Source of the DNA: Candidatus Peregrinibacteria bacterium CG10_big_fil_rev_8_21_14_0_10_42_8
GTDB taxonomy: Bacteria; Patescibacteriota; Gracilibacteria; Peribacterales; Peribacteraceae
NCBI GenBank assembly: GCA_002772815.1
Contig: PFDQ01000019.1
Coordinates: forward strand, 1 to 33,651
Length of the DNA stretch: 33,651 nt
Direction: 5' to 3'
Notes under the pieces: model-generated
What the model was told of the DNA's origin: nothing
What the model saw: the letters and a program-made list of their open reading frames with translations, nothing else
Databases searched by the model: none
Made by a program: the position numbers and the translations under genes
In this document: piece by piece, positions 1 to 10,609 of the stretch
How the letters are laid out: each line of letters begins with the position of its first letter
How positions within the stretch are numbered: the stretch's first letter is position 1

Positions 1-618
1 ATTGTGATGTTGAAGTATATCAGTAATCATTTGTGTTTTACGTGATAGTACTTCTTCGATTTTTTCTTCATCTTCATCTTCATCTTCTATAGTGGATCCT
101 GTTCCTGCGACAAAGATACCAACGTCAGAAAGGCTTGGTGTATCAGTATCGTTACGTTCTTCAGTTGCACTGCCGTGCAACAGTCCGGCAGCGATTTCTG
201 CGTAGCGCTTACGAATACGATTATGTGCCGCAGCACCACCAGTTTGTACATTAACGGTCAATGGTCCCGTAGTCCCTGGGGAGGATGCAAAGTCAAACGC
301 ATCAATAGCGAATACGCTGTAATAATAATTGCCATTTTCCAGATCGGTGTCAGCGTACGACAATGTTGAATTGTCGACGGTGGTCGTAACCAGAGTGCCA
401 GAAGAAGTACTTGCAGGTGCGGATGTAACACTACGACGAACCATGAAATGGTCTGCCGGAGCCTGGGCATCCCAAGATAAGTTAATTGTTGATCCGTCCA
501 CAGAAGAGGTAACTGTCGGTGTAATAATCCCATCCGCAAATACAGGAACGGCAGACATACAGAGCATCGGCAGACCGAGTGCAATTGCTACGCCATAGTG
601 AAAGCGAGGGAAACGCAT
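1..618 (-). CDS. Secreted FN3-like surface protein, partial (C-terminus beyond left edge)
   Basis: This reading frame is open for 206 codons from an ATG at 618 to the left edge, so the C-terminus is missing. Translation gives a signal peptide (basic MRFPRFH start, hydrophobic stretch to about residue 28, then VFA-DG as a likely cleavage site). It is followed by an about 90-residue beta-rich segment with the fibronectin type III pattern (LSWDAQ, then YYYSVFAID). A charged tail contains an acidic EDEDEDEE run coded by a GAAGAT repeat. It probably acts outside the cell; no catalytic motif is visible. A stop codon lies immediately before the ATG, which fixes the start. No Shine-Dalgarno site precedes it; a TTGACA/TATGCT promoter lies so close that the mRNA would be nearly leaderless. 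The FN3 call is by pattern only. Confidence 0.75.
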   Translation of the reverse strand, partial: MRFPRFHYGVAIALGLPMLCMSAVPVFADGIITPTVTSSVDGSTINLSWDAQAPADHFMVRRSVTSAPASTSSGTLVTTTVDNSTLSYADTDLENGNYYYSVFAIDAFDFASSPGTTGPLTVNVQTGGAAAHNRIRKRYAEIAAGLLHGSATEERNDTDTPSLSDVGIFVAGTGSTIEDEDEDEEKIEEVLSRKTQMITDILQHHN

Positions 619-715: not shown

Positions 716-1114
716 ATGAAAAAAAACCTAGGTATCATCATCGGCTTTATTATTCTACTGGTTGCTGGCTTCTATGCATTTAACGCCTATATCTACAATG
801 AAAAACAAGGTGACGGAACCACAGTTTCCGCATATCGTGGGACACTAACTGGAAAGAAAGTATGTTTGACCTATACTGATACAAGCGAGCCACAACCTAC
901 AGGATGTGAACTTGGTATACAGACTGATGCTGGAGAGTACTACGCGCTTAATTTTGTACTACTTTCACAGACTCCCGATCCAGAGTTAGTAACAGGTGAT
1001 CGGTTTTCGGCAAGTGGTCTTATTACCCCAATAGAAATGCTTAGTACTGACCAATGGAGGAAGTACGGTATCGAGGGTATTTTTTCGGTGACTGATTCTA
1101 TCGAAAAGTTATAA
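716..1114 (+). CDS. Small membrane-anchored secreted protein, unknown function
   Basis: A 132-residue protein with a short basic start (MKKN), one hydrophobic helix at about residues 5-24 and an extracytoplasmic domain. The domain has two cysteines (KVCLTYTD and TGCELGIQT), a YYALNFV strand and a second beta-rich half. The layout (C-L-x-Y-x-D-T ... C-x-x-G-I-x-T-D ... YYAL) resembles small Patescibacteria exported proteins of unknown function; I do not recognise an enzyme. The two cysteines could form a disulfide, which fits a DsbB gene elsewhere in the window. Start chosen at the ATG six bases after TATACT. It is convergent with the EGF-like gene, with about 75 bases between the stops. Confidence 0.75.
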   Translation: MKKNLGIIIGFIILLVAGFYAFNAYIYNEKQGDGTTVSAYRGTLTGKKVCLTYTDTSEPQPTGCELGIQTDAGEYYALNFVLLSQTPDPELVTGDRFSASGLITPIEMLSTDQWRKYGIEGIFSVTDSIEKL

Positions 1115-1190: not shown

Positions 1191-1988
1191 TTACGCACAA
1201 TTGAGCACATCGTATTCATCGCACCTATCGCCTGACCAACACTCGGGGCAGGAGCATTCACCGCCGAATACAGTTGGTCCACACGTTCCGCCATTCTGGC
1301 AGGTGTCCCCCAGTGTGGTGCAGTTGGTATCCCACATATTACACGTATCTCCGGAATAAATGCCGACGCATTCGCAACTGTATGCACCACCGGGCTCACT
1401 CGTACATACACCATCGTTTTGGCAGGGAACGGCCGCACAACCACCCGGGAACACTTGCAACGTTGTACCGGTCGACGCTCCAAGATAGTTCCCGGATGCC
1501 GATTGCGTGGCGGTAATGGTTGTGGAGCCGTTGGAAACAAGAGTTATGGTTTTACCGCTTACGGTTGCGATGGACTCATCAGCAATAGAGTAACTGATGG
1601 CACCATCACTATTGGAGGTTGGTGTTGTCATCGTAAACGGGATGTCGCCGACGTTCTTGGTAATTTGGGCAAAGAGGTCGAATGTTGGAGAAATGGCGTT
1701 CACCGTTAATGTTACCATCACCGAGGTTTCAGCATAGGTTCCGCCAGTCGCTTGCATGGCGGTAATTGTGGTGGTGCCGATTTCCACAATGGTGACAGTG
1801 GTTCCTTCAATCGTGGCAACATCGGTATTACTGCTTGTAAATGTAAATGCACCTGCACTGTCTGACGTCGGAGATAGAGTGAATGCAGCGTCGCCATATG
1901 TTTTAGTAATATCTGCAAATGTAATGCTGGGTGTCGTTAGACTGCTTTGCGATAGTTTGATTGCTTCCTCCACCCCCTCCGCCACCAC
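1191..1988 (-). CDS. Ig-like/EGF-like surface protein, C-terminal part (frame-shifted from 1903-2337)
   Basis: Continues the surface protein begun at 2337 but in another frame. Two Ig-like repeats of about 80 residues (each with ITKxxGDxxFT near its start and a TITLVSNGSTTITA-like strand) span about residues 25-180. Two cysteine-rich modules follow. The first has the EGF order C..PCQND.VCTSEPGGAYSCEC..YSGDTC; the second has C-QNGGTCG...CSCPECWSGDRC. The chain ends at DVLNCA. It is probably exported through the signal peptide of the upstream half. No credible own start was found: the first codons (VAEGVEEAIK) are the shadow frame of the glycine-rich linker. A one-base indel near the five-G run at 1973-1977, or a slip shortly after it, would join the halves. 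This could be phase variation, a decayed gene or a sequencing error. Confidence 0.7.
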   Translation of the reverse strand: MVAEGVEEAIKLSQSSLTTPSITFADITKTYGDAAFTLSPTSDSAGAFTFTSSNTDVATIEGTTVTIVEIGTTTITAMQATGGTYAETSVMVTLTVNAISPTFDLFAQITKNVGDIPFTMTTPTSNSDGAISYSIADESIATVSGKTITLVSNGSTTITATQSASGNYLGASTGTTLQVFPGGCAAVPCQNDGVCTSEPGGAYSCECVGIYSGDTCNMWDTNCTTLGDTCQNGGTCGPTVFGGECSCPECWSGDRCDEYDVLNCA

Positions 1989-2337
1989 GTCTTATAGAAG
2001 CGCGGAAAGCGCTCCAGCTATTGGGTGCAGAAGGTGCAAAAGTGTGTTGCGGAGTATGAACAACAGTACGTCGAGAAAATAGTGTTTTTGTTGTATTTCT
2101 CACACCTGTAAGTAACCATTGTGTAATCAGCTTTGCCTGCTCATGTAGGGGTGGAGGAGGTGTGGCATCATAAATTCCTGGTATCACCCAAGCAACAGTG
2201 GTTGTATCTGTAAGCACAGAAGAGCTGTCCGGTGTATTCGATGCAGATACTGATTTTACAGTCGATAACATCAAGTTTCCTGCCAACGTGAAAAAGAAAA
2301 TAATGATGCCAATATCAAATGGTCTGCTATGCGACAT
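1903..2337 (-). CDS. Surface protein N-terminal part: signal peptide and Gly-rich linker
   Basis: Starts at ATG 2337, eight bases after a perfect TATAAT. It encodes a signal peptide/membrane helix (about residues 9-33, ending SVSAS), a Thr/Pro-rich segment and an Arg/Gly stretch ending in a run of seven glycines (about residues 118-124). The residues after the glycine run (SNQTIAKQ and on to the stop at 1903) look like out-of-frame sequence, because the neighbouring frame from about 1960 downward encodes well-formed Ig-like repeats. The true product is probably this N-terminus joined to the 1191-1988 frame, about 375 residues. Read as it stands, the protein would be a short secreted glycine-rich peptide. 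Confidence 0.65.
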   Translation of the reverse strand: MSHSRPFDIGIIIFFFTLAGNLMLSTVKSVSASNTPDSSSVLTDTTTVAWVIPGIYDATPPPPLHEQAKLITQWLLTGVRNTTKTLFSRRTVVHTPQHTFAPSAPNSWSAFRASIRRGGGGGGGSNQTIAKQSNDTQHYICRYY

Positions 2338-2345
2338 TATGTAAA

Positions 2346-2374
2346 ATTATAAAGAGAAAACGCGCCGCTGTAAA
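2346..2374 (-). promoter_or_regulatory. Leaderless promoter of the Ig/EGF surface protein
   Basis: Minus strand: TTTACA (2374-2369), a 17-base spacer, then perfect TATAAT (2351-2346), then eight bases to the ATG at 2337. Transcription is expected to begin one or two bases before the ATG. No Shine-Dalgarno site is present. Confidence 0.6.
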
Positions 2375-2496: not shown

Positions 2497-2682
2497 TTAT
2501 TGGAGATATGATGAAAATGCAGGACAGTACTTTACCCCACGTTTTTTACAACTTTTCTGCGCTTCCTTTGTAAAAGCAGTCATCCCTGTAAGTGCATTGA
2601 GCTTACTTTCAACAGATGCATACTTCATCCGTCGAAGTTGCTCTGTGTCAAAACCCGATGTTCGTGCTTTCTTTTTTTTCAT
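2497..2682 (-). CDS. Small protein paired with nucleotidyltransferase
   Basis: A 61-residue basic protein beginning MKKKKART. Its start overlaps the stop of the upstream nucleotidyltransferase gene by four bases (ATGA), so the two are translationally coupled. A helical segment (TEQLRRMKYASVESKLNAL, then FTKEAQK) resembles the short helical partners often found next to AbiEii-like/DUF6036 nucleotidyltransferases. The Cys/Lys-rich tail (KSCKKRGVKYC) is unlike those partners and may reflect a late frameshift. It is possibly the antitoxin or accessory half of a toxin-antitoxin-like pair. The function is inferred only from the pairing. Confidence 0.55.
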   Translation of the reverse strand: MKKKKARTSGFDTEQLRRMKYASVESKLNALTGMTAFTKEAQKSCKKRGVKYCPAFSSYLQ

Positions 2683-3182
2683 AGATCTTTCAATTCTAGA
2701 AGAGCAACAGCATCTTGTATATCTTTTTCTCTGTCAGATTGCTTTTTCATATCAATAAGATCATCAATGGACACGACAGGCACATCGATGTTCCACACTT
2801 CTGCACGCATGGTGTGCTCTGAAAATTTCTCGAAGTCGATTGACTGCGCAACGAGCACATCTACGTTGAACTGAGGATATTTGTCATGGATGAATGAATA
2901 GGCAATCAAGCCTTTTTCGTTAATGAATGCACGAGCTTGTTGTTCATCGGAGAGTTCTTGAATGCTTATGGGTAGCCTTTGCTGATATCCCATGTCTTCC
3001 ATGATCGTCGCCATCTTGTCCAGATTCTCTCGATCAAGGGTCAGTAGAATATCAAGATCATTCGTAAAGCGCGGATAACCATGCAAATTCACTGCCACTC
3101 CACCCACAATCAGATAGTTGATATGATTCTCAGAAAATGCGCGCAGCAGAGGTTCATAGGTTTCCATAGATGAATATATCAT
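2679..3182 (-). CDS. Nucleotidyltransferase, AbiEii/DUF6036-like
   Basis: A 167-residue protein with the minimal nucleotidyltransferase pattern: a VGGVAVNLHG segment at about residues 26-35, then TNDLDILL at about 40-47 carrying the paired metal-binding aspartates, and FNVDVLV at about 105 with a third acidic residue. Proteins of this type are the toxin or enzyme half of AbiE-like systems that transfer nucleotides to RNA or protein targets. The start at 3182 is supported by a textbook Shine-Dalgarno AGGAGGT eight bases upstream; an internal Met (METYEPLL) is the alternative. It forms a coupled pair with the 61-residue gene. A six-base inverted repeat (ACAGAA 3201-3206, TTCTGT 3214-3219) just upstream could be an autoregulatory operator. 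Confidence 0.8.
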   Translation of the reverse strand: MIYSSMETYEPLLRAFSENHINYLIVGGVAVNLHGYPRFTNDLDILLTLDRENLDKMATIMEDMGYQQRLPISIQELSDEQQARAFINEKGLIAYSFIHDKYPQFNVDVLVAQSIDFEKFSEHTMRAEVWNIDVPVVSIDDLIDMKKQSDREKDIQDAVALLELKDL

Positions 3183-3698: not shown

Positions 3699-4808
3699 AT
3701 GCAACGCGCAACTGTTCTGGAAGAAGCGAAGAGGGATGAACACATTCGACAGATGATCGAATGGCACTTCAGCCCTGACGCAGGAAGTCCGTTCTGGCTG
3801 AGCCAGATGGATGAACTTGGCTTTGATCCGCGCGAAAAGGTGAAAGGTTTCGGCGATCTCGTCGAGCATTTCCCCAACTTCGACGGTGACAAGCACCTGC
3901 GTACTGTCAGCGCTGATCAGTGGATTCCGACAGGTTTCACTGAAGCGCAACGATGGTCGATGTTCGTCACGGGCGGAACGACGGGTGACCCCAAGCGCCG
4001 ACTCGGTCGACGGGGGATGGAACGCGGTGAGTCTGATATTGCTGACGACTACCACGCGTTCGCCAAGCACCTTTCTGCCGGAGGGGGTTTCCCCCAAGGC
4101 GGCAAGTGGCTCTACATTGGTCCCGGAGGTCCGCGTCGTCTGAAGCGTGGAGTGGAAGTCCTCTCCAACGTCCACGAGTCGGTGTTTATTGAAATCGACA
4201 TGGACGTGGCGTGGATGAAGAGTGGCAACAATACCTTGAAGGGTCCCTACAAGCGGGAACTCGTCGAGCGTGCCATTGGTGCGCTGCGACGTGATCGCCC
4301 CGACAAGGTGTTCTGCCCGCCGATTCTCATTATGGCAATTGGCGAACTCTTCGACTGGTCGGAGAGTGGCGTCACCGGCGTGTTTGCCGGTGGTACGGAA
4401 ATGTCACCGGAGACGGTGCGTTTTATTCACGAGGAGTTGTTCAGAGGCAAAGTCCATTTCGCGCCGACCTACGGGAACGCGCTGGTGGGCATCGCTCCGA
4501 ATCGTCCTTACTCCACGTTCGATCGACCAATCGCCGGTCAAGATCCTTACCAAGTCATCTACCAGCCGCTGCAACCGCAAACGCTGCTACGGGTGACGAA
4601 GAAGGGGGACAGCCAGTCTCTGGTCGAGTATGGTGAGTTCGGCTACGTCGAAATCACCACAGTCACGAAGAGTTGGTTCATGCCGCGCTTTCTTGAGCGC
4701 GACTACGCCAAACGCATTGCTCCGACAGAAGAGTTTCCGTGGGATGGTCTGGCTGAAATCCAGCCTCCGCCGGAACTCAAAGGCAAACTGTCCACAGGTG
4801 TTTACTAA
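3699..4808 (+). CDS. PaaK/LuxE-like acyl-activating (adenylate-forming) enzyme
   Basis: A 369-residue protein with the adenylate-forming phosphate-loop motif VTGGTTGDPKRR at about residues 90-101, a GGTEMS motif at about 230 and APTYGNALVG at about 255, the order seen in phenylacetate-CoA ligase and LuxE acyl-protein synthetases. These enzymes activate a carboxylic acid as acyl-AMP and pass it to a thiol. The next gene encodes a LuxC-like reductase, so the pair probably turns an acid into an aldehyde. It is shorter than full PaaK (about 430), as expected for LuxE-type proteins. AAGGAG (3685-3690) gives an eight-base spacing to the ATG. GC content is far higher than in neighbouring genes, suggesting horizontal transfer. 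The substrate is unknown. Confidence 0.8.
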   Translation: MQRATVLEEAKRDEHIRQMIEWHFSPDAGSPFWLSQMDELGFDPREKVKGFGDLVEHFPNFDGDKHLRTVSADQWIPTGFTEAQRWSMFVTGGTTGDPKRRLGRRGMERGESDIADDYHAFAKHLSAGGGFPQGGKWLYIGPGGPRRLKRGVEVLSNVHESVFIEIDMDVAWMKSGNNTLKGPYKRELVERAIGALRRDRPDKVFCPPILIMAIGELFDWSESGVTGVFAGGTEMSPETVRFIHEELFRGKVHFAPTYGNALVGIAPNRPYSTFDRPIAGQDPYQVIYQPLQPQTLLRVTKKGDSQSLVEYGEFGYVEITTVTKSWFMPRFLERDYAKRIAPTEEFPWDGLAEIQPPPELKGKLSTGVY

Positions 4809-4841
4809 ACCATGCACTAACAGAAAGGAAAACGTGCAACC

Positions 4842-6263
4842 ATGACTATTCAACTTCCTGCCCTTCGCTTCGGCGATGGGTATCAAAGCCTCAACCGCAA
4901 CCCGGTCGTTGACTTGGGTTCGGGGGAGGAGATCGCAACGCTTGGACTGGTTGACGGGTCCATGATTGCAACCGACTGCCTTCATGGCGGGAGGTTGCAA
5001 GTCGCATTGGATGCGCTTCAGGCAATTCCAGTGCGAAAACGGATCGCAATGTCAGTCGAAGCGGCTAATCACTTCGAGAGTGCCACGCTCGATTGCGGGG
5101 GTGATGATCAGACCCTCGACAATTACATCGAGCAACTCGCTCGTACGAGTGGACTGTCCTTCGCGCTTGCCAAAGCGAATACCTCGCGTATTTGCGCGGC
5201 ATTGCGAAGCACCGAGGACGTGTTGAACGGATTGTCGCGTGGCTTGCCACTCGACATCTACGACACTGGTTTCGGTACACAGGGTGGAGCCAATGTGCGG
5301 ATTAATCCCCGCATAAAGGCTCTCGGATGCTGCATGCCGAATAACTCACCCGGCGTGCATGTCCTGTGGCTGACACCGCTCGCGTTCGGCATTCCGGTTC
5401 TGATCCGACCAGGAAGTTCAGAGCCGTTCACGCCGTACCGGCTGATCCAAGCGCATATTGCCGCTGGATACCCCAAAGAAGCCTTTGGGTACTATCCATG
5501 CGACTACGGCGCAGCAGATCGCATCCCAACGCTCACGGGCGGAGGGATCGTCTTTGGGTCGGATGCAACGGTCGAGAAGTGGGCTAGCAACCCACGCGTG
5601 AACGTCCATGGTTCGGGCTACAGCAAACTCTTTCTTGGCGACGATGTCGTCGATGATTGGGAACGCTTGCTGTCCGAAATGGTGAAGAACGTTGCTGCCA
5701 ACAGTGGTCGAAGTTGCTTCGCTGTGTCGCGCATTTGCGTTCCACGGCATGCAACGCAGATCGCTGCGGCACTGGCGGAAGAGCTGGCGAAAATTGCCCC
5801 TCTCCCGCTTCAAGATCCAGAAGCGAGACTGTCTGCGATGTCGATGCCACAAGTGGCAACGATGGTCGATGAGAGTATTCGTGAAGGACTGGAGCAGGGG
5901 GATGCCACCGACGTGACCGCACGGTACCGAAAAGGCGACCGTTTGACCACGTTCGAGGGACGGACATACCTCCAGCCAACACTGGTGACGTGTCCGGGGA
6001 ATGACCATCCTCTGGCACAGAAGGAGTTTCTCTTCCCTTACTCCGCGATTGTTGAATGCTCAACAGATCAGGCATTTGCTGAAATGGGTCCAACGCTTTC
6101 GCTGGCTGTCTATACCAATGACGACCAGCTCAAAATGCGCGCCCGTCGCAGTCATGCCAGACTCGTCAGCATCAACGTGCCGACAGGGAAGCTCGACCGA
6201 CGACAGCCGCATGAAGAGGATCTCTTTGATCTCCTCTATCATCGGCAAAGCTACGTCGAGTAA
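4842..6263 (+). CDS. LuxC-like acyl-CoA reductase / aldehyde dehydrogenase family
   Basis: A 473-residue NAD(P)-dependent aldehyde-dehydrogenase-fold protein. The catalytic cysteine lies in NSGRSCFAVSR at about residues 288-298, matching the GQ-x-C block of the family. An NNSPGVHVLW segment (about 168-177) and VNVHGSGYSKLF (about 249-260) fit the nucleotide site. The usual ELGGK glutamate segment is replaced by GSGYSK, as in LuxC-type reductases, which reduce acyl thioesters instead of oxidising aldehydes. It lies 33 bases after the acyl-activating gene with its own AAAGGA site, forming a bicistron ended by a strong terminator. In one 60-base sample (5161-5220) I counted 60% G+C, against 25% at 7201-7260. 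It is probably imported with its partner; aldehyde use is unknown and no luciferase is nearby. Confidence 0.8.
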   Translation: MTIQLPALRFGDGYQSLNRNPVVDLGSGEEIATLGLVDGSMIATDCLHGGRLQVALDALQAIPVRKRIAMSVEAANHFESATLDCGGDDQTLDNYIEQLARTSGLSFALAKANTSRICAALRSTEDVLNGLSRGLPLDIYDTGFGTQGGANVRINPRIKALGCCMPNNSPGVHVLWLTPLAFGIPVLIRPGSSEPFTPYRLIQAHIAAGYPKEAFGYYPCDYGAADRIPTLTGGGIVFGSDATVEKWASNPRVNVHGSGYSKLFLGDDVVDDWERLLSEMVKNVAANSGRSCFAVSRICVPRHATQIAAALAEELAKIAPLPLQDPEARLSAMSMPQVATMVDESIREGLEQGDATDVTARYRKGDRLTTFEGRTYLQPTLVTCPGNDHPLAQKEFLFPYSAIVECSTDQAFAEMGPTLSLAVYTNDDQLKMRARRSHARLVSINVPTGKLDRRQPHEEDLFDLLYHRQSYVE

Positions 6264-7577: not shown

Positions 7578-9065
7578 CTATATAAGTTGTAATGCTCTCC
7601 ATATCTCCACCATAGCAATGGTATCCAGCTTGCAGTACTCCAGAAGGTTTGCAGCTATGTTTTTCTGCTCCTGCTCACTTAATCCATCAAACATCATCTG
7701 TTTCCATACACTGCACGCCATACCTCCATCACTTACTACTAGGTCTGTATAGCTTAAGTCAGGTACGAGTACAGGCAGTACAGCTTTAATAGAGCTACTA
7801 CCTTTGAAGTCTTTGTGTACGTAATGCTGCTTACTAAAGATTTCCATTAAGTCGTAGAAGCGATTATTTACGCCATGTAGGAACTCGGCTAGCTCTGGTA
7901 CGAAATTCGCTAGGTCTTCGTTGCACTTACCTTCAAACTTCTTATTCCAGACAATGACAGTACCGGTGTCTCCTATATCTGCTCGTAGCTTTTCTGCCAG
8001 TGGCTTCATTGGGTTGTCATCTTTTGTCTGTAGGTACTCGGTATGCACAAGCTCTCCTTCTGGTTCATGCAGGGTATGTAGCGAGTACTGAAATGGCACT
8101 TGTTGGAAGGGGTAACAGCCATCGAATACAGGAATAGCTGCCGGGTAGGTTTCGTAGTCTAGGAAGTAGATAGGGTACTCAATTCTCTGTAGCTCCTCAC
8201 GAATTTTATCTTCGTGAATGATGACATCATTGGTATTCGTTACGTGTACCTGGGGCTGCTGTGTAGAGCTTAATTCGTATTCTTTCGGAATATCGGTAAT
8301 GGATAACCAGTCGTTATCTATCATCTCCTGTAGCTTCTTTGGACTACTACCTATCCGACAAATATCATGCACAGAGTAATCTGGTACATGTGGATGGCAG
8401 TATGCGAAGACAGGACAATGATGATTGCGAGCTTTATAGATGCATTCACATAGTGGTGGTTTGTCGTTTTGCATCACCTTCTTGGCGTTTTCTATGTGTA
8501 ACAGTATGTCCTGCTCCATATTTCCCATCTCTTCCGTAATATCTGACTTTATCAGAAGGTCTATGGGGTCAATTTCTCCGTCTTTCGCAAACTCCTTGTT
8601 TAGCTCTATGAGTTGTACTTTACCGACTGGCATATCAGCCTTCTCAAGTAGGATTTTTTGAAAGCAGGCATCTTGATAGTGGATTTCTTTTTTTACTTCT
8701 TTTGAGGTTGTTCCTTTCACCTCATTTACTATCCAGTATGAGTTTTCTTCATCCCATTCCAGAATATCGACCATTGCGTATAAGCCATCTGCTTCAAAAG
8801 TTGCTTGAAAGATTACCTTTGTCTCTGCATCAAGGAGATTCTTTGTATCTTCCACAGCTTGTACTTCTCTAGAAGTGACCAAAGTTCCACTGGGATACAG
8901 CTTACGAGCCCACTGCTCTACTTCTATACCTTGCTCAACAATCTGCTTCTCAAAGTCACTCAAGGGTATCTTCTCTACCTCCTCTGGTTTGTTCTTGCGT
9001 AACCAAAAGTGCGTAGGACACTGCATGTACGCCAAGAAGTCTGTTTTAGAGATGTGGGAAGCCAT
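7578..9065 (-). CDS. DUF2779 protein: Cas4/RecB-like nuclease plus DEDD exonuclease-like domain
   Basis: A 495-residue protein with two nuclease-like halves. The N-terminal half begins SKTDFLAYMQCPTHFWL, the entry cysteine of Cas4/RecB-type nucleases; it continues with IVNEVKGTTS (the E-x-K block) and a cluster CECIYKARNHHCPVFAYC (about residues 220-240) likely to bind an iron-sulfur cluster. The C-terminal half has FLDYETYP (about 318), VWNKKFEG (about 389), FYDLMEIF and YCKLDTIAMVE (about 480), the acidic pattern of DEDD/RNase H-fold exonucleases assigned to DUF2779. It probably degrades or processes nucleic acid. The start at 9065 is seven bases after the toxin stop; a longer start would overlap the toxin. 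A truncated paralogue lies at 10307-10609. Confidence 0.8.
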   Translation of the reverse strand: MASHISKTDFLAYMQCPTHFWLRKNKPEEVEKIPLSDFEKQIVEQGIEVEQWARKLYPSGTLVTSREVQAVEDTKNLLDAETKVIFQATFEADGLYAMVDILEWDEENSYWIVNEVKGTTSKEVKKEIHYQDACFQKILLEKADMPVGKVQLIELNKEFAKDGEIDPIDLLIKSDITEEMGNMEQDILLHIENAKKVMQNDKPPLCECIYKARNHHCPVFAYCHPHVPDYSVHDICRIGSSPKKLQEMIDNDWLSITDIPKEYELSSTQQPQVHVTNTNDVIIHEDKIREELQRIEYPIYFLDYETYPAAIPVFDGCYPFQQVPFQYSLHTLHEPEGELVHTEYLQTKDDNPMKPLAEKLRADIGDTGTVIVWNKKFEGKCNEDLANFVPELAEFLHGVNNRFYDLMEIFSKQHYVHKDFKGSSSIKAVLPVLVPDLSYTDLVVSDGGMACSVWKQMMFDGLSEQEQKNIAANLLEYCKLDTIAMVEIWRALQLI

Positions 9066-9072
9066 AATTGGG

Positions 9073-9423
9073 TTAATTGAATTGAGATAAGTAGTCATTA
9101 ATTCGTTGTTTATCCTCTCTGTGACTCTCACTCTTGATATATAGCTCAATGAAGATGATTTCTATCGAATCCTCATGTCTAGCGTAAATAACACGAAACT
9201 TATTACCACGAAGAGTGGTACAAGGCATTTTAGCTTTATAGACGCTGACATCACCCTGTGCCTTTAGCAGGGTGTAGTTTTTATTTGTTCCTGGGAAACC
9301 GTTATCCTCTTCTAGTTTCAGAGTAAATTTGCAAAATCGTTCTATATCCAACTCAAGGCTCCGAAACTTTTTAATAAGCTTCTTGCATTCACTTTGGCAT
9401 TGGCTGGTAAAGCTATAACTCAT
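9073..9423 (-). CDS. RelE/ParE-fold toxin-like protein
   Basis: A 116-residue basic protein starting MSYSFTSQC at 9423. The end has GNKFRVIYARH, then IEIIFIELYIKSE and RINDYLSQF, the strand-helix pattern of RelE/HigB mRNA interferases or ParE gyrase poisons. The ATG overlaps the stop of the antitoxin gene by 11 bases (ATGAGTTATAG), a translational coupling common in toxin-antitoxin operons. The longer frame from 9480 would intrude 68 bases into the antitoxin and is unlikely. The target is unknown. RelE-type catalytic basic residues are plausible (R, K and H near the end) but cannot be assigned by eye. Confidence 0.7.
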   Translation of the reverse strand: MSYSFTSQCQSECKKLIKKFRSLELDIERFCKFTLKLEEDNGFPGTNKNYTLLKAQGDVSVYKAKMPCTTLRGNKFRVIYARHEDSIEIIFIELYIKSESHREDKQRINDYLSQFN

Positions 9424-10306: not shown

Positions 10307-10609
10307 TCAGCGAATCATCGCATACAGCCCTTCGGCTGCAAATGTCGCTTGAAAGATTTGTGTTTCTCCTGCATCCAGTAGAGCTTTCGTATCTTCTACA
10401 GCTTGTAGATCTCTTGTTTCTATGAGTTTACCCTTCGGGAAAAGTTTTCGTGCCCACTGTTCTACTTCTATTCCCTGCTCAATGATCTGCTGCTGGAAGT
10501 CGCTTATGGGCAGTCTTGCTACCACTTCTGGCTTGTGCTTTTCGAGCCAAAAATAGGCAGAACACTGCAAATAGTGCAAAAATTGGGTTTTAGAGGTGTG
10601 TGAGTGCAT
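10307..10609 (-). pseudogene. Truncated second copy of the DUF2779 nuclease gene
   Basis: The 100-residue frame (start MHSHTSKTQFL) is about two thirds identical by eye to residues 1-98 of the nuclease at 7578-9065. The match includes the entry cysteine region and the block EQGIEVEQWARKL. It ends abruptly after GLYAMIR, where the intact gene continues GLYAMVDILEWDE. The catalytic E-x-K, the iron-sulfur cysteines and the whole DEDD half are missing, so it cannot be an active nuclease. A TACACT box ends eight bases before the ATG, so it may still be transcribed. It is either a remnant of a replaced operon copy or a short regulator using the N-terminal fold. Confidence 0.8.

Follow-up and report, generated by a model that had tools for sequence, protein, structure and literature searches.

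On the minus strand of the window (the whole 33,651-base stretch that was analyzed, which is contig C58 of a 1.01-Mb, 60-contig genome), the ORF list contains two frames that overlap by about 85 nt and are offset from one another by one base. The N-half ORF (2337..1903, 144 aa) runs from an ATG to a TAA stop that lies inside the overlap, and codes for a candidate signal peptide (a hydrophobic stretch and then SVSA/SN, read by eye), a unique spacer and a SAFRASIRRGGGGGGGS linker, with a C-terminal end reading SAFRASIRRGGGGGGGSNQTIAKQSNDTQHYICRYY. The C-half ORF (1988..1191, 265 aa) codes for two Ig-like (Big_2) domains and two EGF-like modules, and has no signal peptide of its own. When the region was shuffled 2000 times (order-1), no open stretch of at least 265 codons appeared, while the 147-codon half alone was unexceptional, being matched in 140/2000 such shuffles. 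Codon preference, computed in 41-codon windows and trained on the window's other genes, favored, in the direction of the gene, the N frame until about 1980 and the C frame after about 1965, and the codon-usage score was −62 for a reading in one frame as compared to about +31 when a single frame change was allowed. The initial annotation had proposed one surface protein split across two frames at these positions, and the switch of codon usage within the overlap bears this out.

A promoter-like site, TTTACA-17-TATAAT, which agrees with the consensus at 11/12 positions, lies at 2346..2374 on the minus strand, with the end of its −10 hexamer 8 nt upstream of the ATG at 2337. It is the sole sigma-70-like match within 1050-2450; promoter-like matches occurred at a mean of 2.5 in shuffles, so that the site is not significant by itself. 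The spacing between the −10 hexamer and the ATG suggests that the mRNA of the surface protein may be leaderless, in agreement with the start that had been proposed for it, with the reservation that comparable matches arise in shuffles by chance.

Both domain types that had been read from the C half were recovered by Pfam. Big_2 (PF02368) scored over the cut-off (43.4 bits vs 22.8, 3.3e-11) in two stretches, and EGF (PF00008) likewise (24.7 bits vs 21.5, 2.9e-5), with the second EGF module giving an hEGF match below the cut-off; no SLH domain (PF00395) was found by Pfam in either half. The EGF pair aligned by phmmer with the EGF pairs of Notch and DLK1 in PDB (8e-9). The likeness to these animal receptors and ligands lies in the tandem module sequence only and is uninformative on function. 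The EGF modules are genuine and rare in genomes of the family Peribacteraceae: PF00008 scored over the cut-off in 2/74 family genomes (the source genome and G033) and in 0/14 control genomes, which upholds the earlier remark that such modules are unusual. Our search found no literature linking EGF with Peregrinibacteria or Patescibacteria. A survey of fibrillar adhesin-like proteins (PMC8286594) lists Big_2 among the stalk families, and the window protein shares with these proteins both Big_2 and a secreted multidomain layout; it differs from them in being short, with only two Ig domains, and in its EGF modules, as EGF is absent from the text of that survey.

Among the 353 genomes of the class that were searched, close relatives of the C half were found, besides the source genome, only in G033 and G080, and four more genomes gave weaker Ig-domain matches. 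G033, a single-contig genome from another genus of the same family, carries a syntenic homologue (L002:1465-3003) that is 55% identical and encodes 512 aa in one open frame. Its signal peptide is followed by three SLH domains, an SKRRGGGGNG hinge, two Ig-like domains and two EGF modules, whose twelve cysteines align with those of the window gene. The two genes thus share the Ig-Ig-EGF-EGF order, the hinge, the G-rich tract and a neighbor gene, but the hinge is preceded by three SLH anchor domains in G033 and by a short unrelated spacer in the window gene, and the frame is single in the former and broken in the latter. The G080 homologue (L013:1486-2286) encodes 266 aa, also in one open frame, with a signal peptide, a AWEAFRMSKRRNGGG hinge and two Ig domains, and has no EGF modules. 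It resembles the window gene in its putative signal peptide, in a W-x-AFR-x-S-x-RR hinge with glycines, and in its two Ig-like domains, which are 53% identical. The C half had no matches in viral contigs, and in bacterial genome contigs only a distant Ig-domain match was found.

The N half had no convincing relative in 57 other genomes, its homology being limited to a short motif: NSWSAFRASIRRGGG resembles LAWEAFRMSKRRNGGG of G080 (blastp 7e-4, in a two-sequence comparison). Since homology is so limited here, it is codon usage, together with the candidate signal peptide, the promoter-like site and the hinge motif, that argues for this part being coding. The hinge, which reads RRGGGG in the window and in G033 and RRNGGG in G080, shares the frame of the N-terminal part in each of the three genes, and the two halves are therefore best seen as one gene. 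In the window the RRGGGG precedes the break in the frame of the N part, and a TTPSITF-like sequence follows the break in the other frame. The sequence before the hinge is unrelated among the three homologues (an SLH triplet in G033, a short spacer and a unique spacer), which suggests that the N-terminal anchor may be swapped between relatives at the glycine hinge.

The gene lies in a neighborhood of surface-protein genes. A membrane-anchored protein of 132 aa (716..1114, plus strand) converges on the EGF gene, and the same convergent layout is found beside the G033 homologue. Further out, a secreted fibronectin-III-like protein (1..618, minus strand; labeled by eye, with no Pfam hit) runs off the end of the contig, and has homologues near the EGF/Ig gene in both G033 and G080. 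Four genomes of the same genus have neither the EGF gene, nor the 132-aa neighbor, nor the fibronectin-like one. This surface-protein neighborhood is patchy, the 132-aa gene accompanying the homologue in G033 and the fibronectin-like gene lying near those of both relatives.

Several other features of the contig were observed. Immediately upstream of the surface-protein gene lies an AbiEii/NTP_transf_5-like nucleotidyltransferase (2679-3182, minus strand). An adjacent gene pair at 3699-6263 (plus strand), one weakly AMP-binding-like and the other of the aldehyde-dehydrogenase family, has 56-57% GC and a GC3 of 0.60-0.64, as compared to about 37-46% GC for the other measured genes of the contig, and this contrast suggests that the pair was recently acquired. 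A duplication has apparently left a remnant at 10307-10609 (minus strand), where a truncated copy, of 100 aa, shows 66% identity over its first part to the 523-aa protein encoded at 7578-9149.

Misbinning was rejected, and the contig assigned to the genus, on the alanyl-tRNA synthetase that it encodes, which shares 77-80% identity with those of same-genus genomes and at most 69%, over the main match, with those of the other genera tested. In a relative, G006, the alanyl-tRNA synthetase gene (C40:6017-7930) gives two separate matching pieces, one of which contains a TGA; this suggests that draft genomes of the family carry frame breaks in essential genes. An alternative genetic code with TGA as a sense codon, an idea prompted by TGA-containing matches elsewhere in the class, was likewise rejected as a cure for the break in the surface-protein gene, as the stops that bound the overlap are TAA. 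Those matches, L025, L026, L027, L029 and L030, are distant Ig-domain matches in one other family; each has between 5 and 10 TGA codons in frame, which is consistent with TGA being read as a sense codon in that lineage.

The position of the break was approached through both homology and codon usage. When the alignment score to G033 and G080 was plotted against the assumed switch point it formed a plateau at about 1977-1932 and fell on either side, and codon usage gave a broad optimum at about 1992-1917, consistent with the plateau and with no finer placing. The likeliest stretch for the one-base frame change (1932..1977, minus strand) thus comprises a low-complexity linker together with the last part of the G-rich tract. 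The halves had been said to meet at this tract, within which there is a five-G run. The run does exist, at 1973..1977 (minus strand) within GGCGGAGGGGGT, but the break cannot be placed more narrowly than 1977-1932, and neither the homology plateau nor codon usage singles the run out. The identical 12-mer, five-G run included, occurs in the same codon phase in the G033 gene, where the frame stays open; the run is a feature shared with an intact gene, and its presence is therefore no evidence that the break lies there. Three other six-glycine tracts were found in the genome, two in long unbroken frames and the third outside any long frame.

The initial annotation had further proposed that a slippery tract at this place could switch surface display on and off, and had pointed to homologues as a place to look for an intact frame. 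Both homologues proved intact, in contrast to the window gene with its one frame change, and no relative shows a conserved break. A functional break, in which a frame change in the glycine linker would select between a stub and the full Ig-EGF protein, by either phase variation or recoding, is quite improbable. For phase variation, with slipped-strand mispairing in the G-rich tract toggling display, one may cite that the product is a surface protein, a kind that is often phase-variable, and that the G-rich tract sits at the edge of the stretch that holds the break. Against it, no long homopolymer or perfect short tandem repeat was found at the break, where the longest run is the five-G run and the glycine codons form an imperfect repeat; known phase-variable tracts are usually longer. 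Runs of five G are also ordinary here, as the window has 18 runs of at least five G or C, and G033 reads straight through the same tract. We consider switching of this sort very unlikely, and the earlier proposal is not sustained.

The notion that the locus holds two genes, one for a small secreted protein and the other for an Ig-EGF protein translated on its own, has as little to commend it. Each half has a possible start codon, and the composition of the halves differs (GC3 of 0.32 vs 0.49), but the C half would then begin at a GTG in the glycine tract and lack a signal peptide, which is ill-suited to a disulphide-rich EGF protein, and in G033 and G080 the signal peptide and the Ig domains are joined in one chain across the RRGGGG-type hinge. 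Least probable is a programmed ribosomal frameshift or transcriptional slippage by which one mRNA would yield both the full-length protein and a short secreted stub: the open frames do overlap and an SD-like G-rich tract stands at the upstream edge of the possible shift, but the shift needed is +1 or −2 rather than the common −1, no prfB-like CUU-UGA signal (by inspection) and no long A or T run are found there, the predicted RNA structure is unremarkable (z of −0.35 to −1.37), and both homologues are single-frame.

We therefore favor, with a probability of roughly 0.87, one gene that encodes a modular, secreted protein of the cell surface and carries a single non-programmed, one-base break, which would be due either to an error in the consensus or assembly or to a recent private indel. 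The break is taken to be non-programmed since the relatives are single-frame, a +1 or −2 shift would be needed and RNA folding is unremarkable, and since in prokaryotic genomes unclustered, homologue-validated frame breaks are expected to be mostly sequencing errors and not genuine indels (Antonov et al. 2013, PMC3711429). An error or a private mutation also fits better than an on/off switch because a relative has the same gene with the five-G run in an unbroken frame, and nothing points to long decay, as the gene is otherwise open and its twelve EGF cysteines align with their counterparts in G033. Between an error and a recent private indel the odds are about even; a point on the other side is that the contig's other long genes are unbroken, which gives no hint of an assembly with many errors overall.

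The window gene thus encodes a modular surface protein that is ordinary in kind, though rare, and its frame is broken by one base. From the N terminus the protein would comprise a putative signal peptide, a variable spacer or anchor, the RRGGGG hinge, and then a pair each of Ig-like domains and EGF-like modules, the break falling in the low-complexity linker that joins the hinge to the first Ig domain; if this is a recent private indel, only a 144-aa secreted stub would be left. We infer a location at the surface, as well as the absence of a functional switch. Judging by its domain types, this short protein would most likely have an adhesin-like or scaffolding role at the envelope of the bacterium, whose genome is small. 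For annotation, the two ORFs are best entered as a single surface-protein gene with a broken frame, and for the biology of the family, true EGF modules do occur, rarely, in these small-genome bacteria.
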